Source: a virus. From it: DNA of 34,923 nucleotides. Each line of letters opens with the position of its first letter. Position 1 is the first letter of the stretch. The stretch covers positions 1 through 34,923 of IMG/VR virus record IMGVR_UViG_3300044712_002652. One strand, 5' to 3'. Shown here piece after piece: positions 2,939-17,916 of the stretch. The translations under genes were made by a program, and so were the position numbers. The notes below the pieces were generated by a model. That model worked only from the letters and a program-made list of their open reading frames with translations. It was not told the origin of the DNA and searched no databases.

Positions 2939-5900
2939 ATGACGGTCAATTATGAACAATTCATTGAGGATGTGCGGAACGCGAATCCGATTGAGGATGT
3001 GATCCAGAGCGCGGAGTTTGGGGGCGTGCAACTGGAGCGGGGATCGCATTTGTTGACGGCGACGCACCATGATAGTTTGAAGGTCAGCATTGATTATCAA
3101 AATTATCATTGGTATTCCAAAGAGGGAAGTGAGAAATTTTGGAAAGGCGACGTATACGCATGGGTGCAGATGCAATGCGGCTGTGATTTCATGGAAGCGT
3201 TGCGGAGACTGGCTGCTCGGGCGCGGATGGAGATGCCGCGCCTGGATGAAGAGACGAAGATTAAGTTTGCGGCAGTACGTTTGACTGAGGACGCTTTTAG
3301 CGTTGCGACGAAGATTTTTGCGGAATGGCTTTGGAAAGACGAGGCGGCTCTGGCTTACACACGCGGGCGCGGCTGGATGGATGAAGTGATTTGTTTATCC
3401 GTTACCGCTGATGAAGCATTACGAGAAAACGCGCCTTATAAATTTTTACCTGAAACCATGAAGGCAGCTGAAAAATTAGTCAAAGAGGGGAGCGGGTTTG
3501 TAGTTATTGCAAGTGGAGCAGGGTTGGGGTTTGCTGGGCGCGGGACGCCGCAAGAATATGAACAGATGAGGAACGCGCTTGCTGCTGCTATTGATATTCA
3601 TTCACCGGCGGCGGTGGCTTTGCTTGGGCTACGCGGCGGGGTGAAGGCATGGGGCGAGGCGCGCGGGATTGACGTTTCTAAATGGGTGGAGAAGGACAGA
3701 ATTCCATCCATGTTGGGATGGGCTAATAATTGCGGATTGATTTATCCGTTTGTCGAGCGCGGAAAAACCGTGACATTCACGCGCAGAAATTTGTTATGGG
3801 GTGAAGATGGGAAGATTGTTGGAAACGATGAATGGAAAAGTTATAACCTGCCGAAAGAGTTAATGGGCGGGATGCGGTTATATCGTAACCGCGTATGGTC
3901 AAAGCATACGGAACGAGAAATATTTGTCGAGGGTCCCGCGTGCGCGGTGACTTTCCTGCAATGGGAAATGCAGCGAAAAGCGCTGCTGAAAAAATATCGG
4001 GATGAGAAAAAAGACGCGCCGATTTGGTTGGAATCCATGCCGGAAATGTCTGCTACTGCTATCAATGGGAAGGAGTGGCACGGCTGGGCGGATGAAATCG
4101 GGAAGGAAACAAAGGCTGAGGATGGTCACGAGTCAAGTTTTATCGGCTTTGACAGCGATAAAGCGGGGAAGTCGCCATTGAAGGGCGAGCGTGGAAATGA
4201 GTTTGAGTTGGCTGAGAAGGTCGGAGCGTTGACGCGCGTGTTGGAGTTTCCCGAAAAGGACGCGAATGATTGGTTGAAATGGATGGTCAAGAGCGGCATA
4301 TCGGTGGAAGACCAATTGGAATTAGTAAATCAACAATTGGGAAACGCGAAGCCGATGGCGATCCATGCGGCGCGGTGGATGGGGGAACAGCGGAATGAAG
4401 ACCAATTGAAGAAAGCGGCGGTGCGCGTGGCGCGGATTTTGAATTCGCTGAATGGGGTGGATGTGCAATTTTATATGAAGGATTTATTGAAGGCGCTGGC
4501 TCCGCTGGTTGGGGATGACGGGCAAAAACTTTATGGAACAAAGCGCGACGTTGACCAGTGGCTCGGCAAGGTGAAGAAGGAAGAAAAGGGGAACGGGAAA
4601 AAAGAAGATAACGTTGAGTATAGTTTCGGCGGGCGCAAGGGGAAGTGGCTTCTGGAATATTGCTATAACCCTGAGACCGTGAAGGCGCATTGGGCATACC
4701 GCGACCCGGATGGGAACGTGGATGAAAAAGACGAGGTGCTGATTGATGGGATTATCCAGCGCCCCAACCCGCCTGAGCAAAATAAGATGATTACCGGCGG
4801 ATCCATTTTGTTTCCGTCTGGTTTGGCGCGAAATAAAGACGGAAGTATTGACCGAAAATCAACGAAAGAAATTGTAAATAAAATGTCTTCTGAATTCCGA
4901 TTAGATTACATTTTCGAGGAGCATAAATGGTCAATCCTTTCCGCGTATTGGGTGATGGGAACGTGGGCTTACGATAATTTCCATGAATTGGTCTATCTGC
5001 GGATGGTGGGCGATGCGGGCGCGGGGAAGTCTGCGCTGCTGAATTTGTTGATGTGGACGAGTTATCGCGCGATCAAAATGAGCGGCGCGGACAGTGATGC
5101 TACATTTTTTCGCATTGCGGATGAATGCCAGGGAGCCATGTTTTTTGAAGAGGCTGATTTTGACGAAAAAACGGGACCGGAAAACCCAAAAATAAAATTT
5201 ATAAATTTGGGCGCGTTCGACGGGAATCCAATTTATCGTTTGGAGGAGTATTACAAGCCAGACGGCACAAAGGGCTGGCGGGCGACTCCATACAATACGT
5301 ATTGTCCAAAGGCTTTTGCGATGCGCGGCGATTTTATGGATAATGCGGTGGCTTCGCGCTCGATCACCATTAAATTGACCGCGGCTGAGACATCCACCAT
5401 GAAAGAAAATAATATTTCATGGCGAATGACCGACGAGATGAAGCGAAAACTTTTACACCTGCGCAATTTATGTTTGACGTGGCGGCTGTATGAATATTCC
5501 TTCGAGGAGCGCGAGTTGGGATGGGATTTGATTGATACAGATATTCCGATGCGATTGAATCAGGTGACTGCGCCGTTGAAATCTTTAGCGAAAAATATCG
5601 ACGGCAGCAAGGATGAAGAATTTCTGAATCAAATGGAGGTTTTACTGCGCGAGCATTACCAAGATTTGATCGGGGACGCTTCAATTTCATGGCAGGCGCG
5701 AACGGCTGAAGCGTTGTGGAAGATTTATACGCTTTCGGATTTACAAGAGCGCATGGATATTGCAAATGACGGCTCGATATTGATTAAGGTTGGAGATGTG
5801 ACTGCCATCGTGAATAATATCGCGGACGAGATGAACGATGAGGGGTCTGATCTGCGCGTGCAAAAAGTGGAATATGAAACCATCAAGGGCGCGGATGGGG

Positions 5901-9459: not shown

Positions 9460-9846
9460 ATGGACGACTTGGACGGAAATATTCTGAAAAGTTACAACCT
9501 GTTTTTATGCGAGCGTGGTCATGCTTTGGGCGTGATCATCAAAAGACGCGTGCGCTATGACACGGATAAAGCGCATGTGAATTACAAAACTCCGCGCGTG
9601 TATATTTTCCGAGATGCAGTTGATTTGCAGGGACAAATCCCCAAGAAAATTGTTGTGTCTGGTTTTATGGATGGCAACATGCTGCGGATGCGCTGGAGAT
9701 GCAATGTGAGCGGGTGCGGCTGCGAGACTCGTTGGGACCCTAACAAAGACGCGCTGGATTGGTTGAACGCGCGATATGGAAAAAAGGAAGATGTCATGCC
9801 GCAGGGCGAGCCGGAATATGGGTGTGTTGAAGGAGATGTGAAATGA
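9460..9846 (+). CDS. putative metal-binding hypothetical protein
   Basis: A 128-residue protein. C-E-R-G-H near residue 17 and the cluster CNVSGCGCETRW near residue 82 suggest one bound zinc ion, although they are not arranged as a standard zinc ribbon. The middle is beta-rich. ATG 9460 has AAAGGAG upstream, after a palindromic element. Its end overlaps the DUF4326 gene start (ATG at 9843). The function is unknown; it may act together with its neighbours. Confidence 0.68.
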   Translation: MDDLDGNILKSYNLFLCERGHALGVIIKRRVRYDTDKAHVNYKTPRVYIFRDAVDLQGQIPKKIVVSGFMDGNMLRMRWRCNVSGCGCETRWDPNKDALDWLNARYGKKEDVMPQGEPEYGCVEGDVK

Positions 9847-10163
9847 ATCAATTGCCGAAACGAATTCAGCGGAAGCGCGTGAAGGGTTGGCGAATGCCTG
9901 CAAATACTGTGTATGTTGGACGCCCTACAGATTGGGGGAATCAATTTGTTGTCGGTTTTGGGTGTGATCCTTTTATTGTAGCCAGCCACTGGTTGGCGCG
10001 GCATAAATTCGAGCAATGGATTGAGAAAGAAAAACAACTATATCCGAACTGGTTTGCCGAATGGCTTGCGCCCCTGCGCGGTAAAAATCTCGCGTGTTGG
10101 TGTCCGCTGGATCAGCCGTGTCATGCGGATGTGCTGTTGAAACTTGCAAATGAGGAGAAATAA
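9843..10163 (+). CDS. DUF4326 family protein
   Basis: A 106-residue protein with the hallmarks of DUF4326: RIQRKRVKGWRMP and YVGRPTDWGNQF near the N-terminus, and LRGKNLACWCPLDQPCHAD near the C-terminus, where the cysteines and the histidine could bind metal. The family is common in phages and mobile elements and has no proven function. The start overlaps the previous stop (AAATGA). The next gene follows two bases after its stop, so both are probably co-translated. Confidence 0.88.
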   Translation: MNQLPKRIQRKRVKGWRMPANTVYVGRPTDWGNQFVVGFGCDPFIVASHWLARHKFEQWIEKEKQLYPNWFAEWLAPLRGKNLACWCPLDQPCHADVLLKLANEEK

Positions 10164-10164
10164 C

Positions 10165-11067
10165 ATGCCAGCGCGAACTAATATCCATTGGGCGGATTAT
10201 CAGAGCAATATGCTCTATGCCGTGTTGAAGAGCGATGAATTTCGAGAGGGTCATGCGTGCGTGCGGGTGAGTCCGGGGTGCGAGCATTGCTGGGCATCCG
10301 CATTCAATACGCGACTGGGAACGGGACTGCCCTACACGGCGCAAAATTTGAAAAAGGTCGAGGTCAATCTGCATGAGACCGAGTTGAAGCGCATTACAAA
10401 ATTCAAGCCAAAGCCGCTGAAGGGTGAATCCGCGTTCAAGTGGGGACGGTCCCGCGCGGTGGTGTTTCCGTGCGATATGACGGATATGTTCGGGGAATGG
10501 GTGACGGATGAAATGCTGGACCGCATGTTTGAGGCGATGTATTATCGCGCGGACGTGGATTGGATGGTGTTGACAAAACGCCCAGGACGCGCGGCGCAAT
10601 ATTTACAGGCGAAGGCGCAGGCGGGCAAGATGCCGTTGAAAAATATCTATATCGGATGCACGGTAGAAGACCGGATGCGGGCAGATTTGCGCGTCCATCC
10701 CATGCGGACTATTCACAGTTTGGGATGGAATACGTGTGTGAGTTATGAGCCTGCGCTTTCGAGCGTGGATTGGAATGATTGGTATTTCATTCAATGGCTG
10801 GTGTGCGGCGGGGAGAGCGGCGCGGCGGCACGTCCCATGCACCCGGATTGGGCAAGGGGCGCGCGGGATTTTTGCGTGCGGAATAACATTCCATATTTTC
10901 ATAAACAGAATGGCGAATTTGCGCCACTATCCGCGCTGAATGTTACGGACGCGACAACGTTCAAGCATAAGCCGATCAACTGGGAAGGGACGATGCTCTA
11001 TCGCGTGGGGTTGGGATTGGCAGGCAGGCTGTTGGATGGCAGAGAGTGGAATCAAACGGCGAGGTGA
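10165..11067 (+). CDS. DUF5131 (phage Gp37/Gp68) family protein
   Basis: A 300-residue protein matching the phage Gp37/Gp68 family, which is related to radical-SAM enzymes. A cysteine cluster of the form CVRVSPGCEHCW is near residues 29-40; the CxxC is followed by Trp where CxxCY is usual. Further family stretches are VFPCDMTDMFGEWV, WMVLTKRPGRAAQYL, IYIGCTVEDRMRADLR, WLVCGGESGAAARPMHPDWAR and IPYFHKQNGEFAP. The reaction is not known. The start ATG 10165 has GAGGAG upstream. It precedes the integron integrase by three bases and could be transcribed with it. Confidence 0.88.
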   Translation: MPARTNIHWADYQSNMLYAVLKSDEFREGHACVRVSPGCEHCWASAFNTRLGTGLPYTAQNLKKVEVNLHETELKRITKFKPKPLKGESAFKWGRSRAVVFPCDMTDMFGEWVTDEMLDRMFEAMYYRADVDWMVLTKRPGRAAQYLQAKAQAGKMPLKNIYIGCTVEDRMRADLRVHPMRTIHSLGWNTCVSYEPALSSVDWNDWYFIQWLVCGGESGAAARPMHPDWARGARDFCVRNNIPYFHKQNGEFAPLSALNVTDATTFKHKPINWEGTMLYRVGLGLAGRLLDGREWNQTAR

Positions 11068-11070
11068 AGC

Positions 11071-12054
11071 ATGGCGAAGTTGATGGATGAAGTTCAAAAT
11101 GCTTTGCGGGTTCAGAGATATGCCTATAAAACTGAAATCCAATATATGAATTGGATTCGCAGATACGTGCGTTATTTTTTGCCCAAACATCCGCGCGAGA
11201 CGGGCGTGGAAGGCGTGCGCGAATTTACGACTCGTTTGGCGGTGGATGAAAATATTTCACCATCTACGCAAACTCAATGTCTGGCTGCGCTGACATTTTT
11301 ATATAAGACGCTTGGCATTAAGTTGGGCGATATTGGCATGGTACGCGCCAAAAAAGATAAACTTCTTCCGTTTGTCTTGACCGAGGAAGAGACAATGAAT
11401 CTATTAATGAATTTAAGCGGCGTTTATCGCATTATGGGCGAGATCATCTATGGCGGCGGTTTGCGATTGATGGAATGTTTACGGCTGCGCGTGAAAGATG
11501 TTGACCTGGATAATTTGTCAATTACCCTGCATGAAACAAAAAGCAATCGCGACCGCGTAACGTGCCTGCCATCTTCGGTAACACCGATGTTGAAATTGCA
11601 CCTGGCGAAAGTAAAGGCAATACACACAGAAGACCTTGCAAATGGAATGGGACGCGTCGAGATGCCGTATGCGTTTGACCGTAAATCGAGCAATGCAGGT
11701 TTGGAGTGGGGCTGGCAATATGTCTTTCCGGCGGCTAGATTTTCCAAAAATCCGCGCACAGGCGAGAAAGGTCGTCATCATATTTATGAAACGAGTTTAC
11801 AGCGAGCCGTAAAAGAAGCGGCAACGGCGGCAAGGATTTCAAAACCGGTTGGAGTTCATACACTGCGGCATTGTTTTGCGACGCATTTGTATAAAAACGG
11901 AACGGATATTCGGACAATACAGGAGTTGCTTGGACATCAAAAACTTGAAACGACAATGATTTATGTGCATTTACTCGGGGGCGCGGCAGTTAAGTCGCCG
12001 TTGGATCGGTTGACTGCTAATCCGCTTATACGGCAGGTAGTTGTAGAATCATGA
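11071..12054 (+). CDS. intI: integron integrase (IntI)
   Basis: A 327-residue tyrosine recombinase of the integron class, which captures and excises gene cassettes at attI and attC sites. Catalytic residues are R132, K157, H263, R266, H289 and Y298. From memory of IntI1 (R146, H277, R280, H303, Y312) each lies exactly 14 positions earlier, so the spacing is identical. The integron-specific insert is present: FDRKSSNAGLEWGWQYVFPA, then SKNPRTGEKGRHHIYETSLQRA, which matches ERKYPRAGHSWPWFWVF and RRHHMYDQTFQRA of IntI1. Ordinary Xer proteins lack it. GAGGTGA precedes ATG 11071. It points towards the cassette, the arrangement of so-called reverse integrons, and GTTAGAC begins at the base after its stop. 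Confidence 0.94.
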   Translation: MAKLMDEVQNALRVQRYAYKTEIQYMNWIRRYVRYFLPKHPRETGVEGVREFTTRLAVDENISPSTQTQCLAALTFLYKTLGIKLGDIGMVRAKKDKLLPFVLTEEETMNLLMNLSGVYRIMGEIIYGGGLRLMECLRLRVKDVDLDNLSITLHETKSNRDRVTCLPSSVTPMLKLHLAKVKAIHTEDLANGMGRVEMPYAFDRKSSNAGLEWGWQYVFPAARFSKNPRTGEKGRHHIYETSLQRAVKEAATAARISKPVGVHTLRHCFATHLYKNGTDIRTIQELLGHQKLETTMIYVHLLGGAAVKSPLDRLTANPLIRQVVVES

Positions 12055-12061
12055 GTTAGAC
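12055..12061 (+). other. GTTRRRY core site at the cassette 5' boundary (attI candidate)
   Basis: GTTAGAC matches the core recombination site GTTRRRY, cut between G and TT. It starts at the base after the intI stop codon. It is the exact complement of GTCTAAC at 12464-12470, as expected when the cassette's own attC is split by linear insertion. Another GTTRRRY match, GTTGGAT, lies at 12000-12006 within intI and could belong to an attI site. Confidence 0.75.
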
Positions 12062-12548
12062 CCCTTCGTGAAGGAGAAGGTTATGAACAGAGAAGAAATC
12101 TTGAAAATGCCCGCAGGTCGTGAAATGGATTTGTTGGTTTGCAGGCACGTAATGGGTATCGAAGCGCGTTGTACTGTCATTGAGTATCAGGGCAAAGAGG
12201 TTGTAAATAAAAAATATACAGCAACTATAAATCATGAATTAGTTGACATGCCGTATTATTCCACCGAGATTGAATCGGCTTGGAATGTCGTAGGCAAAAA
12301 AGATATTGATGGCTGGTCGTGTGTTGTTGAAAACCTGCGCGGATATTGGCAATGTACATTTGCAAAAGTTGGAAACACTGGCGCGTATTGTTCTGAAAAA
12401 CTTGCGCCACTTGCAATATGCAAAGCCGCTTTACTAACAGTCGTTCCCGTCACCGAAGGCGGGGTCTAACATCGCGTGCAGTGGATTGGCGGGTACGGCG
12501 CGGCTTGAAAGCGAAGTTTCGCAACCCGCCAACCACTAACGCAAACCG
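12056..12548 (+). mobile_element. integron gene cassette
   Basis: A 493-base unit bounded by G^TTAGAC (12055-12061) and G^TTGGGC (12548-12554). It holds one promoterless gene followed directly by an attC-like site, the standard cassette design. The first six bases and the inverse core of its attC are perfect partners. The coding part is visibly richer in A and T than the genes around it, which fits separate origin. Confidence 0.8.
12083..12469 (+). CDS. cassette gene: phage ABA-sandwich-like protein
   Basis: A 128-residue protein. It starts MNREEILKMPAGREMDLLVC and later has YYSTEIESAWNVV and LAPLAICKAALLTV. These match the layout of the small phage ABA sandwich domain family (INRxEILxMPAGREMDxLV, YSTDIxxAWxVV, LAICRAAL), which has no firm function. 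AAGGAG lies six bases before ATG 12083, so the cassette brings its own ribosome site. The stop TAA is part of the inverse core GTCTAAC of attC, a usual feature of cassette genes. It has several Cys residues and no signal peptide. Expression probably depends on read-through from the intI side. Confidence 0.85.
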   Translation: MNREEILKMPAGREMDLLVCRHVMGIEARCTVIEYQGKEVVNKKYTATINHELVDMPYYSTEIESAWNVVGKKDIDGWSCVVENLRGYWQCTFAKVGNTGAYCSEKLAPLAICKAALLTVVPVTEGGV

Positions 12549-12554
12549 TTGGGC
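12464..12554 (+). other. attC-like cassette recombination site
   Basis: It is 91 bases long, from inverse core GTCTAAC (12464-12470, RYYYAAC) to core GTTGGGC (12548-12554, GTTRRRY). Between them AGTGG (12480-12484) pairs with CCACT (12533-12537), and TTGGCGGGT (12486-12494) pairs with ACCCGCCAA (12524-12532). A12485 is left unpaired, like the extrahelical bases that set strand choice in attC sites. GCGT (12474-12477) can also pair with ACGC (12539-12542). A smaller hairpin, GCGAA-GT-TTCGC, caps the structure. Confidence 0.8.
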
Positions 12555-12585
12555 GGTTCTCGCTCAACGGCATAAGGAGTAAACA

Positions 12586-12696
12586 ATGGAATTTGTAAGA
12601 TTAGAATCCATGTTCTACATATTGCTTTTTGATTCTGATTATGTTAAAATTTTCTGGAAGTTGAATATTTTTGCAAGCCCTTATTTGAAGGGCTAA
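12586..12696 (+). CDS. possible 36-residue leader or small protein
   Basis: AAGGAG lies six bases before ATG 12586. The frame encodes 36 residues, hydrophobic and aromatic (MEFVRLESMFYILLFDSDYV at the N-terminus), and ends within a hairpin upstream of the terminator. The same bases also carry a promoter-like sequence, so this may be a leader peptide, a small protein or nothing. No family is recognised. Confidence 0.3.
   Translation: MEFVRLESMFYILLFDSDYVKIFWKLNIFASPYLKG
12622..12650 (+). promoter_or_regulatory. possible sigma-70-type promoter before late genes
   Basis: TTGCTT (12622-12627) and TAAAAT (12645-12650) are 17 bases apart. The -10 box matches five of six consensus bases, the -35 box only three. 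Transcription would start near 12657, pass a hairpin and a terminator, and enter the late operon. The region is markedly AT-rich compared with its surroundings. Confidence 0.4.
12676..12694 (+). promoter_or_regulatory. leader hairpin before terminator
   Basis: AGCCCTT (12676-12682) pairs perfectly with AAGGGCT (12688-12694) across the loop ATTTG. It lies between the possible promoter and the terminator. It may be part of an attenuation or antitermination leader. Confidence 0.45.
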
Positions 12697-12709
12697 ACCA
12701 TGCAGCAGT

Positions 12710-12751
12710 AAAAAGCGCGCTGCGACCTATTTGGTCGCGGCGCGCTTTTTT
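12710..12751 (+). terminator. strong rho-independent terminator between early and late genes
   Basis: GCGCGC (12715-12720) and GCGACC (12722-12727) pair with GGTCGC (12733-12738) and GCGCGC (12740-12745), with one U-G step between them and the loop TATTT. A T-run (12746-12751) follows and an A-run precedes, so it could work in both directions. It lies 28 bases before the first late gene, so late transcription must start after it or read through it. Confidence 0.9.
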
Positions 12752-12779
12752 GTTGCCTATTTTCAAAAGGAGATTTGCT

Positions 12780-13222: not shown

Positions 13223-13600
13223 ATGATCGGCTTCGAGACGTTCCTGCGCGAAAATGGTTGGCTGGGTTTTCTTATCTATGTTGTTGTCAAGGAAGCCTGG
13301 CCCTTTGTCCGCGATAAGGTATGGCCGTGGCGGGTCGCGGCGGCGGCGGCGGATAGAGAGCGGTTGAAGAAACTAGAAGACCGCGCAATATCGAACGAGG
13401 AGCGTCAGACGAGGGCGCTTGAAAGCATGAATACCACGATGCAATCGGTGGCGCTGGCGATTACTACGAACAACGAGCGCATGTCGCAGTTGATTGTGGG
13501 TCACGCGGATCATGCGCGGTTTACGCAGGACGCTATTTCCGCGATGCGCGAGACGGTGGCGGCGCGGCGCGCGGTAAAGCGCAATGTAAAGAGAATGTGA
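13223..13600 (+). CDS. membrane-anchored coiled-coil protein
   Basis: A 125-residue protein with one N-terminal hydrophobic segment (about 12-30) and a long helical, probably coiled-coil, remainder ending in a basic tail (RRAVKRNVKRM). This resembles some small phage holin-like or BhlA-like proteins in plan only. It lies six bases after the previous gene, and its stop overlaps the small terminase start (TGATG). The pairing with the preceding membrane protein suggests a joint envelope function. Function not proven. Confidence 0.65.
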   Translation: MIGFETFLRENGWLGFLIYVVVKEAWPFVRDKVWPWRVAAAAADRERLKKLEDRAISNEERQTRALESMNTTMQSVALAITTNNERMSQLIVGHADHARFTQDAISAMRETVAARRAVKRNVKRM

Positions 13601-14298
13601 TGACTATTTCAGCGTCTCCAAGTCAATTGAAATTCGAGTGGGACCTTCCAGAGGAAGAGTCCACTTCCGCTTTAAGCGCGGAAGAAATTCAACTGCGGAA
13701 GGATTTGGCTGAGGCTTTTATCTATAACCCCGAACATTGGGAAAAAGATGATCAGGGCAAACCCGTAAAACCCTATTGGCTTGAGCAAGCCACGACCTTG
13801 CGCGAAGGCAAAATGCGTTTCCCGTTCCGCGTAGCGGTCTTGACTGCCTGGTTATGCACGCCGAAAAAATACCGCTTCCCGAAAACGCAGGATGAATTGG
13901 CGAATATGCTCGGTCTGAGCAGCGACCGCGTGTTTACCGTCTGGATGGCGAAAAATCCGCAGATTAAAGCGGTAGTGCATAGCGCCTGGCGCGAACGCGT
14001 GTTGGATCATGTCAATGACAGTATGGAGGCAATGTTTGAGGTTGCCGCGCAACCCGATTACAAAGGACATGGCGACCGCGAGTTGCATTTCAAAGTTGCG
14101 GAAATCTTGACCGATAAAGTTATCCTGGACAAGACCGGCAATGTTGATCTAACCAAGTTGACATTTGAAGAAAAATTGAAACTGGCGGGCTTGGATGATC
14201 CAGACGCGCTGCTTGCATTGAAGAAAGAATTATTGCAAAACGATCTGGAACTTGAAGTCACTGCCGAGGATGAAGGCGATGCTGCCAGCGACGCTTAA
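13600..14298 (+). CDS. putative small terminase subunit
   Basis: A 232-residue protein placed directly before the large terminase. A helix-turn-helix is visible in the stretch TQDELANMLGLSSDRVFTVW (about 104-123), fitting a DNA-recognition subunit that marks the genome for packaging. The acidic C-terminus (about 175-232) may contact the large subunit. ATG 13600 is chosen over GTG 13597 because it forms the TGATG overlap. Its end overlaps the large subunit by about 20 bases. The assignment rests on position and the helix-turn-helix. Confidence 0.78.
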   Translation: MTISASPSQLKFEWDLPEEESTSALSAEEIQLRKDLAEAFIYNPEHWEKDDQGKPVKPYWLEQATTLREGKMRFPFRVAVLTAWLCTPKKYRFPKTQDELANMLGLSSDRVFTVWMAKNPQIKAVVHSAWRERVLDHVNDSMEAMFEVAAQPDYKGHGDRELHFKVAEILTDKVILDKTGNVDLTKLTFEEKLKLAGLDDPDALLALKKELLQNDLELEVTAEDEGDAASDA

Positions 14299-15835
14299 TG
14301 TCACCCGCGAGGAGGCGCGCGCGGAAGTGGGGCGCGTGCTGTTGGCGCGCGAATCGCTGGCGTATTTTGCCGAATACGTGAGCATGGATGATGAGGGAAA
14401 TAGTTGGTACACGGCATACAAAATGCACCAATTGATAGCGCATGAGTTGGAGCAGGTTTTGCTTTACATCGAGAGCGGAGGCAAAAAAGGCACGCAGTTT
14501 TTGATGGTCTTGACCCCGCCCCAGCACGGCAAGTCCGCGCTTATCTCGCGCATGTTCCCGGCGTTCGCCATTGGAAAACTTCCCAATTTGCGCGTGTTGG
14601 AAATTTCATACGGCGCGGACTTGGCGAGCGAGCATAGCAAATTCGTCCGCAATTTAATTTTGTCGGACAGATATAAATCGGTGTTCGGGAAATTCTCGCC
14701 GAGCGAAGAGCCTGTCGCATTGGCGCAGGATAGCAAAGCGGCGGCGGCGTGGGATTTGGCTGCGCCTCATCGCGGCGGGATGATTGCCGTGGGCGTGGGC
14801 GGCGCGGTTCCTGGTCGCGCAAAGGGTCTGGTCGTTTGGGATGATCCAATCAAGGGACATAAAGAAGCGCAGAGCAAAGACGTGCGCGATGACGCCTGGG
14901 ACTTTTACGTTTCCGCGTTGCGCGTGAGAACCATCGCGGGCGTGCTGGTGATGACGCATTGGAGCGACGACGACCCCGCGGGCAGAATTATGAAACAGAT
15001 GGTCGAGAAATCGAACAGCGACCAATGGAAAATTTTATGCCTGCCGGGACTCATCGAAGAGAATATGTTTGCGGCGGATAAAGAGGAACAGCGCAAGAAA
15101 ATGCTCGAAGGCGTTTACCTGCCGCTGCGCGATCCGCTAAAGCGAAAAGTGGGAGAAGCGCTTTGTCCTGAAATTTTATCGAAAGCGGAGATGTTGAAAA
15201 TCCGCGAGCAGAGCGATTTTTATTTTTCGGCTTTGTACCAGCAGCAGCCGTATCCCAAAGACGGACAGAAATACAAACGCGCATGGTTCGAGACGGTGAA
15301 GAAAATGCCGGATGATTGCAAAATAAATTTTGCGGTACGGTATTGGGATAAGGCGAACTCGAAGCGCGGCGATTACACCGTGGGCGCGTTGATGTGCTAT
15401 TGCAGCAATGAGTTTTTTTACCTGCTGGATATTGCGCGCATTCGGGATACATCTTATGGGCGCGATGAATTTATGAAGAAGGTTTCGGCACAGGACGCGC
15501 AGACGTATGGCAATGTGAAAATCTGGCACCAGCAGGACCCGGGACAGGCTGGGAAGGACGCGGCGGAAGCAACCAATAGAATGTTGATGGGCTATCCGGT
15601 GAAGTATGAAACCGTCAGCGGCGATAAAGCGGCGCGTTCGGAAGGATTGGAATCCGCGTTTCAGGGCAAACATATCCTGCTCATCGAAGGCAATTGGAAT
15701 GAGGCGTTCATCAGCGAGTGCGTTGCTTTTACCGGCATGGATGGCGGTCACGACGACCAGGTGGACGCGGCGAGCAGCGCGTATCATAAGTTGATCCAAA
15801 TGATAGGAAAGCACAAGAAGAGCAAAATTCTATGA
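14279..15835 (+). CDS. terL: large terminase subunit
   Basis: A 518-residue packaging motor, ATPase plus nuclease. Walker A is TPPQHGKS (about 79-86, lysine K85), Walker B is VVWDDP (D188, D189) and a coupling motif is MTHWSDDD. The nuclease half shows D357 in RYWDKANSKRGDY and D492, D493 and D496 in HDDQVD, the RuvC/RNase-H-like acidic set. The PPxHGKS motif is typical of the phage_term_2-type terminases. The ATG 14279 is preferred because GAGGA lies eight bases upstream; ATG 14270 and TTG 14252 in the same frame are less well placed. The last four bases overlap the portal start (ATGA). Confidence 0.95.
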   Translation: MLPATLNVTREEARAEVGRVLLARESLAYFAEYVSMDDEGNSWYTAYKMHQLIAHELEQVLLYIESGGKKGTQFLMVLTPPQHGKSALISRMFPAFAIGKLPNLRVLEISYGADLASEHSKFVRNLILSDRYKSVFGKFSPSEEPVALAQDSKAAAAWDLAAPHRGGMIAVGVGGAVPGRAKGLVVWDDPIKGHKEAQSKDVRDDAWDFYVSALRVRTIAGVLVMTHWSDDDPAGRIMKQMVEKSNSDQWKILCLPGLIEENMFAADKEEQRKKMLEGVYLPLRDPLKRKVGEALCPEILSKAEMLKIREQSDFYFSALYQQQPYPKDGQKYKRAWFETVKKMPDDCKINFAVRYWDKANSKRGDYTVGALMCYCSNEFFYLLDIARIRDTSYGRDEFMKKVSAQDAQTYGNVKIWHQQDPGQAGKDAAEATNRMLMGYPVKYETVSGDKAARSEGLESAFQGKHILLIEGNWNEAFISECVAFTGMDGGHDDQVDAASSAYHKLIQMIGKHKKSKIL

Positions 15836-17916
15836 ACTTTTTTCAGAAATTATTTAGAAAGGCGGCGGGCGTTGTCTCGAAGGCATTTTCTTTTATGCCT
15901 GTGTGGACACGCTATGCCTTCTCTGCGATTACGTTCGATAAGATTATCCGCGAGGGGTATAAGGCAAACGCGGCTGTTTCTGCGTGCGCTACAACGTTAC
16001 AGTTGACATTCCCCGAGCCGCCCTTGTTGGCGGGGTATGAGGAAGATGGGCGTTTCCTGCCGGACTATAAACATCCAGTAATGAGATTGCTGAAAAATCC
16101 GAACCCGGATATGGGGCTGGCGGAGTTTTTGCAGTTTGCAATTGCTTACGCTCCCATTGGCGGGAATTGTTATATCTGGAAACAGAGGGCTGTAAATAAA
16201 AAGGTGATTGCATTATGGCCTTTTAGCGACGCGCAAATTAATCCGATTGCGGGGCATGATACGAGCGAGGGCTTTGTTTCATATTATGAATATGACGCGG
16301 GCGACGGGAAGAAAATTCCGGTGTCGAAGGACGACATTATCCATTGGAAATGGATGATTGATCCGGCGCAACCGTGGCGCGGGATTGGGGCAATTGAATT
16401 GTGCGCGCGCGAGGTAGATAAGGATAACGAGGCGACGGCGTATATTTTTGCGCTGTTGAAAAATAACGCAGTACCCCCAGTGGTGATTACGCTGGAGGAA
16501 GACGACGACTCGACGCAAGACGAGATTGACGCGATGGGTTTGAAGTGGGTGCAAAAACATGGCAAGGGTCAACCGGCTTTTATATCCGCAGGGATGAAGG
16601 TCGAGCAGATGGGTTTTGATTTGAATAAACTTGCCGCAGATACGCTGGCGGATATTCCTGAGACGAGAATCGCTGCAAACTTCCATGTGCCGCCCTCGGT
16701 GGCTGGCTTAAATGTGGGGGTGAAGCGATCCGATTATGGAGACGCGGCGGCGCGTAAGGCATTTACTGAACAAACATTGATGGCTCTATGGCGGTCTCTG
16801 GCTTCGGAATTGTTGAACGGATTAAAGGACGAGTATCCTGGCACGCCTGCAAATTTCGTTTTGCAATTTGACTTGCGGCGAGTGGGGGCGTTGCAGGAAG
16901 AGTTGAGCAAACGCTGGGAGCGCGTGACTCTGGCGTTCAATCGGTCGCTGTTGACGCGGGGGCAGGCGAAGCAGGAATTGGGGATGCAGGTTGAACCTGG
17001 CGATGATGTTTATTTTGTTTCGCTGGCGAGCGAGTTTGTGAAGGCAGGCGGGGATGGGGTGGTGGATAGGAGCAGCGAGACCCCACTTCAAAATGGAAAG
17101 AGCGCCCCGACCCTTCCCTTTTTAGATACAAAAGAAGAGGGAAAAAAGGCGAATATGTCGAGCGCGATAGTTTTGCAGAAGATTCGGATGGATGTAGCGC
17201 GGCGGATGGGTGTGGCTGTGGATGTTTATTTTTCGCAGTTGGCGGATCGAGTAGTGGAGAGGGCGGGAAAGGCGACCACACCCCCGACCCCTCCCCATCC
17301 TTCGGCTATTGCTCAGGATGGAGAGGGGAGAAAAGACGATTTTCCGAATGCTGGCGATTTATTGAATGCAGATGATGCGGCAAAGTTGGCTTCATTGATA
17401 AAGCGTTTTTATGTGGAAATTTTGTCGCTTTCATGGGAGACGTTGAATTTGACTCTGGGGGTGGATTTGGCGTTTGATTTGGGCGATCCGCTGGTGGGGC
17501 AGTTGATGAAGATGGCAGCGGCGAATGTGAAGGAAATCAACGATGTGACGCGGGCGGCTATCCGCGAGGCATTGCAATATGGCGCGGATAACGGTTGGAG
17601 TATTGACCAGTTGGTACGCGGCGATGAGACATACCCAGGTTTGCGCGATATTGTGGATGAGGTTTACCAGGGGCGGGCGAGGACGATTGCGCGAACTGAA
17701 TTGGGCAATGCACAAAATGCCGCGACGGCGGCACGGTATAGGCAGGCAGGGGTGAAGTTGGTTGAAATTTTGGACGGCGATGTGGACGCTCAATGCAAAA
17801 TTGCGAACGGTCAGATTTGGACGGTAGATTATTTTGCGGAGAATCGGTTGCAACATCCGAATTGTGTGCGGGCGGCGGCGCCGGTGTTTGAGGATGTGGA
17901 GCCGGATAGAGGATAG
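15832..17916 (+). CDS. portal protein fused to MuF-like head morphogenesis domain
   Basis: A 694-residue fusion. Residues 1-405 are an HK97-type portal (NPNPDMGLAEFLQF, IIHWKWMIDP, IAANFHVPPSVAGLN), the ring through which DNA enters the head. Residues 520-694 are MuF-like (RARTIARTELGNAQNAA, LDGDVDAQC, then HPNCVRAAAP), a minor head protein usually encoded by a separate gene. The linker between them (about 406-520) is odd: it contains two palindromic repeat tracts, one almost identical to an intergenic repeat of this genome, translated in frame as Pro-rich sequence. The start ATG 15832 overlaps the terminase stop. Confidence 0.92.
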   Translation: MNFFQKLFRKAAGVVSKAFSFMPVWTRYAFSAITFDKIIREGYKANAAVSACATTLQLTFPEPPLLAGYEEDGRFLPDYKHPVMRLLKNPNPDMGLAEFLQFAIAYAPIGGNCYIWKQRAVNKKVIALWPFSDAQINPIAGHDTSEGFVSYYEYDAGDGKKIPVSKDDIIHWKWMIDPAQPWRGIGAIELCAREVDKDNEATAYIFALLKNNAVPPVVITLEEDDDSTQDEIDAMGLKWVQKHGKGQPAFISAGMKVEQMGFDLNKLAADTLADIPETRIAANFHVPPSVAGLNVGVKRSDYGDAAARKAFTEQTLMALWRSLASELLNGLKDEYPGTPANFVLQFDLRRVGALQEELSKRWERVTLAFNRSLLTRGQAKQELGMQVEPGDDVYFVSLASEFVKAGGDGVVDRSSETPLQNGKSAPTLPFLDTKEEGKKANMSSAIVLQKIRMDVARRMGVAVDVYFSQLADRVVERAGKATTPPTPPHPSAIAQDGEGRKDDFPNAGDLLNADDAAKLASLIKRFYVEILSLSWETLNLTLGVDLAFDLGDPLVGQLMKMAAANVKEINDVTRAAIREALQYGADNGWSIDQLVRGDETYPGLRDIVDEVYQGRARTIARTELGNAQNAATAARYRQAGVKLVEILDGDVDAQCKIANGQIWTVDYFAENRLQHPNCVRAAAPVFEDVEPDRG
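17082..17150 (+). repeat. degenerate palindromic repeat inside portal-MuF gene
   Basis: CCCCACTTC, then GCGCCCCGACCCTTCCC, then a G-rich arm AAGAGGG resemble the lead and arms of the intergenic palindromes (CCCCACCC, GACCC, CCTTCCC). Pairing is imperfect. It is translated in frame in the linker of the fusion protein. Confidence 0.45.
17278..17336 (+). repeat. intergenic-type palindrome translated inside portal-MuF gene
   Basis: 17291-17328 matches 21166-21203 at 37 of 38 bases (CTCCCCATCCTTCGGCTAT, then a T/C difference, then GCTCAGGATGGAGAGGGG). The arms 17288-17300 and 17316-17328 pair at 12 of 13 positions. Here the repeat is part of the coding frame, adding roughly residues 482-503. Confidence 0.85.

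Follow-up and report, generated by a model that had tools for sequence, protein, structure and literature searches.

The window, that is, the whole 34,923-bp stretch of DNA analysed here (positions 1 to 34,923 of IMG/VR virus record IMGVR_UViG_3300044712_002652), is by its gene content a contig of a tailed phage, as indicated by genes for the small and large terminase subunits and the portal (Table 1). Upstream of these genes, and on one strand, lie a DUF5131 gene, an integron integrase gene (intI), a complete gene cassette with its attC site, the head of a second cassette and a conserved stretch of phage backbone. Only 3 bp separate the DUF5131 gene from intI, and 28 bp separate the intI stop from the start of the cassette ORF.

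Table 1. Features of the integron and its surroundings, and of loci compared with it (window coordinates unless another contig is named).
Feature	Location	Strand	Evidence or remarks
DUF5131 gene, left backbone marker directly 5' of intI	10144..11067	+	PF07505, E 2.5e-52
intI, integron integrase, 327 aa	11071..12054	+	TIGR02249, 368 bits (cut-off 265)
attI core, GAATCATGA followed by GTT, fused to intI 3' end and stop codon	12046..12057	+	motif conserved before the G/TT point
Gene cassette, excisable unit of 493 bp	12056..12548	+	start complements own R''; homologue in L003
Cassette ORF, 128 aa, Phage ABA sandwich domain protein	12083..12469	+	PF18066, E 4.5e-13
attC	12464..12554	+	R'' 12464-12470; L'' ~12474-12484; extrahelical A12485; L' ~12527-12542; R' 12548-12554
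Second cassette head, truncated, no attC	12549..12596	+	resembles heads of L003 cassette 2 and L017 cassette 2
Conserved phage backbone 3' of the array	12597..12752	+	TTAGAATC box, then GC-rich hairpin with T-run, ahead of the holin-like gene
Terminase small and large subunits, portal	13597..17916	+	PHROG 38, Terminase_6C; portal PF04860 and phrog_2662
Chromosomal integron L108	G579:C23 8532-13026		inverted layout
Palindromic leader copies	L005 6189-6260, 6584-6692, 7464-7574, 8413-8546; also L016, L124, L178, L196		
ORF tails encoded by L'' (examples)	L015 9018-9224, L005 6301-6531		

By its sequence characters, the intI product is a true integron integrase. It exceeds the curated cut-off of the IntI-subfamily model TIGR02249, and its closest solved structure is V. 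cholerae IntI4 (2a3v, E 5e-67), in an alignment that spans the IntI-specific insertion (EWGWQYVFPA region), which is present in the window protein. The catalytic set is complete (R132, K157, H263, R266, H289, and Y298), and these residues are invariant across 10 relatives, divergent members of its clade at 60-82% identity, which argues for long purifying selection on IntI. The window enzyme is probably active. Its stop codon TGA (12052-12054) lies immediately 5' of the G/TT point at which the cassette begins. With an intact intI, the locus falls outside the definition of a CALIN (an array without intI).

The cassette opens with GTTAGAC (12055-12061), the exact reverse complement of GTCTAAC (12464-12470), which forms the R'' of its attC. 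The stop codon of the cassette ORF (TAA, 12467-12469) falls within this R'', and R' is a different word, GTTGGGC. An initial annotation, made from the sequence alone, had recognized these features as the ends of a mobile integron cassette, and all of its coordinates are correct; a real cassette with an attC does lie beside the intI end. Its cassette boundaries stand, but its wording of the extent does not, since the excisable unit ends at 12548 and the last bases up to 12554 already belong to the following cassette. The same annotation had proposed folding the bottom strand, and we found that 12464-12555 folds at -21.4 kcal/mol on that strand, compared with -15.4 ± 2.5 for shuffled sequences (z -2.4). 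The top strand folds about equally well, so that folding energy alone cannot show strand choice. In the fold A12485 is unpaired, in keeping with its proposed likeness to the extrahelical bases of attC, and all 12 sites of our first attC alignment have an A at the corresponding position. This alignment combines the window site with those of two related phages and has the architecture R''-L''-loop-L'-R'.

Downstream of this attC, the sequence resembles a cassette head, with the shared pattern GTTGGGCG.TTC...GCTCAAC...AAGGAG, and runs into conserved backbone at about 12597, which identifies it as a truncated second cassette. No Rfam family matched at the attC site. The ABA cassette protein was not found in 396 genomes of the class presumed to contain the hosts or in the plasmids searched, nor was the cassette DNA found in the sequenced phages searched. 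PADLOC recognized none of nine cassette proteins as a defence gene product.

We built a covariance model (R2) from 20 attC sites, leaving out that of the window. In the underlying alignment 92.5% of the cells are paired, the pairing is lost when the alignment is slid by one column, and the helices contain 77 double-change cells (25 when shuffled). Model R2 recovered the window site at 12464-12554 with 69.4 bits (E 1.8e-18) and no second attC on either strand of the 34.9 kb. Both alignment and model show the R'', L'', L', and R' arms pairing as an imperfect hairpin.

In integron cassettes, the first bases must complement the cassette's own R'', and R' comes from the next element. We examined this rule in 28 cassettes from 11 related loci, with 112 variable positions and 100,000 shuffles. 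The start word was the complement of R'' at 104 out of 112 positions (shuffles 62.8 ± 4.1, maximum 83), and the match was perfect in 23 out of 28 cassettes, where 3.2 were expected, including all seven cassettes in this table that adjoin attI. For a single cassette, a match at the four variable positions would arise by chance about once in 256 cases; across the 28 cassettes the agreement bears out the initial view that it is unlikely to be accidental. By comparison, R'' and R' within one attC agree at only 60 out of 112 positions, as expected if R' derives from the next cassette.

The docking site of the cassettes (attI) is predicted from a conserved motif at the end of intI and a sharp break in homology at the G/TT point. 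The predicted recombination point lies between G12055 and T12056, and the motif before it is kept in clade members with different cassettes, reading (G/T)AATCATGA followed by GTT, or close variants, at the intI end. In L017 and L018, IntI ends in GL and a stop, not in VES and a stop, and attI there reads TAATAATGA followed by GTT; that the DNA is kept despite the differing protein end suggests selection on the DNA itself.

Comparison with related phages places the breaks in homology exactly at this point. The window and its sister phage L002 are 84% identical over the 150 nt before G/TT and 25% identical after it, whereas the window and the sixth cassette of L003 are unrelated before G/TT and then share 32 identical bases from G/TT onward. 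These opposite breaks mark both cassette boundaries as recombination points. The cassette that lies directly on attI in the window has its homologue at array position 6 in L003 (2983-3452), and another cassette is common to L114 and L116, again at different positions. More generally, different cassette heads follow the same attI in about 20 related viruses, and the cassettes stand in tandem, with one in the window and up to 10 attC sites in relatives. The initial annotation had named an ordinary intergenic palindrome, fixed in related phages and lacking cassette boundaries, as the observation that would speak against it; the varied cassettes behind one attI and the displaced homologue in L003 contradict this. 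Sequence comparison thereby establishes cassette turnover between relatives and the cassette boundaries, as it does the attC structure and the integrase family. A phage lacking the cassette, which had also been suggested as a check, was not found, as no relative examined has an empty attI.

The surrounding backbone is conserved as well. The DUF5131 gene adjoins intI or alternative cargo in L002 and L009, and the TTAGAATC box and hairpin recur 3' of the L002 and L017 arrays as well as in L009, which is integron-free. In L009, whose terminase is 65% identical, two methyltransferase-like genes occupy the same locus. We also observed a likeness between a backbone gene of the window (9843-10163, MNQLPKRIQRKRVKGWRMPANTVYVGRPT...) and the cassette gene that comes first in phage L112 (after 8973), which points to a possible exchange between cassettes and phage backbone.

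Twenty viral contigs encode integrases related to that of the window (51-80% identity). In a first tree (65 rows), the nine phage-context IntIs then known made up one side of a branch with support of 100/99, and the extended clade comprises the 20 viral contigs and one chromosomal locus, L108 (SH-aLRT 97), which is nested beside L017-L019. We dropped the description of a phage-only clade when genomes of the host order added this locus inside it, and L108 shows that the clade is not exclusive to phages. Like the phage elements, L108 (G579) has the inverted layout, an attI (TAATAACGA followed by GTT), and an IntI that is 84% identical to that of phage L017; unlike them, it is bordered by ordinary bacterial metabolic genes. 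It may represent a transfer from phage to chromosome or, possibly, a relative of the source.

The hosts of these phages are likely Chloroflexota, as two phage contigs of the clade fall into bacterial genome bins of a single order, one of them titled Chloroflexi. Of the 396 genomes of this presumed host class, 98 contain an IntI. In the clade members in which attC was found, every attC hit of the phages lies 3' of intI and on the intI strand, and the chain of start and R'' words, which uses sequence only, agrees on this layout where arrays hold several cassettes. The canonical integron layout is divergent, whereas in the window intI points towards the array, making it an inverted variant of an integron rather than something other than an integron. 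Chromosomal integrons of the host class that have attC near intI follow the canonical layout, with attC upstream and on the opposite strand (L079 has one weak opposite hit), and their IntIs, at 42-56% identity, fall on different branches. Their attC sites are nevertheless of the same type: the phage-trained model scores them at up to 83 bits, and they reach 82% identity to a phage site over 125 bp. A cassette pool shared between phage and host would fit these scores and identities, and we infer that phage and host integrons may exchange cassettes; no complete cassette common to phage and host was found in our searches.

Phage integrons are known from Vibrio anguillarum phage Va_90-11-286_p16, the P1 isolate L-II, and the Shewanella prophage M16-3, and CALINs have been reported in virulent phages (Qi et al. 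2023, PMC9892861). These phages resemble ours in having IntI, attI, attC or cassettes in their genomes, and phage attC sites were found to be active with IntI1 (Qi et al. 2023, PMC9892861). However, the complete integrons of that study are sporadic and either close to those of the host (for example, 95% identical to the Shewanella IntI) or class 1, and their IntIs are at most 42% identical to that of the window. The window IntI, in contrast, belongs to a clade of its own with some 20 viral contigs, a shared attI, an inverted layout, and varied cassettes. The inverted layout itself has precedents: in Treponema, intI is transcribed towards attI in the cassette direction (PMC3607928), and typical Spirochaetota IntIs are also termed reversed (PMC9668308). 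Treponema integrons are chromosomal, in spirochaetes, and are likened to the window element by layout alone. Phage integrons and the inverted layout are thus already known, and what appears to be new is a lineage of phage integrons that maintains itself and turns over its cassettes; no phage-maintained clade with such anatomy and turnover was found in the papers searched (subscription papers and preprints were outside the scope). The layout, the phage clade, and the truncated second cassette also go beyond the initial annotation.

Together, these observations make it very probable that the window contains a phage-borne integron in which the 3' end of intI and its stop codon double as attI. We propose that IntI, by the mechanism established for other integrons, would recombine attI with the folded bottom-strand attC of a cassette circle, the crossover falling between G and TT. 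New cassettes would then enter right behind the intI stop, and older ones would be displaced downstream or lost by excision or deletion, leaving in the window phage one complete ABA-sandwich cassette and a truncated second head. The consensus promoter scan gave 7 promoter-like sites (6.6 expected), with no convincing Pc promoter. As intI, the array, and the neighbouring genes are co-oriented and tightly packed, transcription that reads through from the phage operon, rather than a divergent Pc promoter, probably accounts for cassette expression.

On balance, we favour the broader hypothesis that at least one phage lineage maintains integrons of its own as an accessory module. In Chloroflexota phages this would be an inverted form whose attI is fused to the stop codon of intI, which is read from the phage operon and shares its cassette pool with host chromosomal integrons; a second, separate viral set of IntIs has canonical arrays. 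The reduction of the window array to one cassette and a fragment, together with the loss of most of intI in L003, indicates that the system decays in some phages. These two cases, the truncated intI of L019, and the explanation of Vibrio phage integrons as captured host pieces (Qi et al., PMC9892861) would also suit an inactive relic, in which a piece of a host integron was caught once and inherited passively, and cassette differences reflect phage mosaicism. We consider this improbable, as the catalytic residues remain intact over the 10 divergent members, breakpoints fall exactly at G/TT in many phages, within a single attC R' differs from R'' in the way expected of recombination, and the layout, inverted relative to the host class, argues that the phage integron was not simply cut out of a host locus. 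It is far less likely still that the attC is an ordinary intergenic palindrome, such as a terminator or DNA-binding site: palindromes are common between phage genes and this region folds on both strands, but a model built without the window site matched here and nowhere else in the window, relatives have tandem arrays of sites behind intI with all hits of this clade on one strand, cassette starts match R'', and Rfam offers no family. Metagenomic contigs can be chimeric and IMG/VR calls can err, but a bacterial integron joined artificially to a phage contig is hardly credible when the same order of intI, attI, and array recurs in some 20 contigs drawn from different samples, when related genes for primase, ParM, DUF5131 or terminase occur in many of them, and when phage genes abut the integron on both sides in the window.

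Integrons have been studied as bacterial gene-capture systems. Few examples had been reported from phages, and most of these were parts of host integrons or of class 1 integrons. Phages of a clade that keeps an integrase and a docking site of its own, and whose cassettes change, would have a cut-and-paste route to new genes, and the cassettes would gain a virus-borne route between hosts. The exchange of cassettes between phages and chromosomes, and cassette expression without a divergent promoter, thereby become testable.

In addition, we observed a second, separate group of about 51 IntIs on viral contigs (L126-L187; SH-aLRT 98). By the chain of start and R'' words, several of its members have canonical divergent arrays (8 cassettes in L126, 10 in L127, 8 in L128, and 9 in L167), and the array of L128, a phage-like contig (3600-8100, minus strand), includes a cytosine methylase ORF. 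A third small viral group (L175, L177, L178, and L182) has IntIs 41% identical to that of the window, and here too the attC arrays follow intI and run in its direction. In virus Rctr41k, which comes from a DAMO enrichment, an integrase annotated as xerD (KX853513.1, 4680-5663) is 38% identical to the window IntI over 98% of its length.

Within the clade of the window, L003 has an intI (238-434) reduced by a large internal deletion to its first few codons and the 3' end with attI, followed by ten attC sites; it looks like a platform that has lost its integrase, a step towards a CALIN. The intI of L019 is truncated. One cassette occurs twice in the L003 array (438-902 and 3450-3914), in copies that are 87% identical. 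A repeated palindromic leader (GACGCTGCGCTCCCCC...GGGGGGCTTGGTC) heads many cassettes and is common to several phages. Cassette ORFs often extend into attC, where the L'' arm encodes a common tail such as TKRAVD or TLRAPD. Finally, the Chloroflexi phage-like contig L020 has further attC sites at 15752-15863 and 16774-16903, about 6-7 kb after its first array, close to an ORF for a Dam-like methyltransferase.
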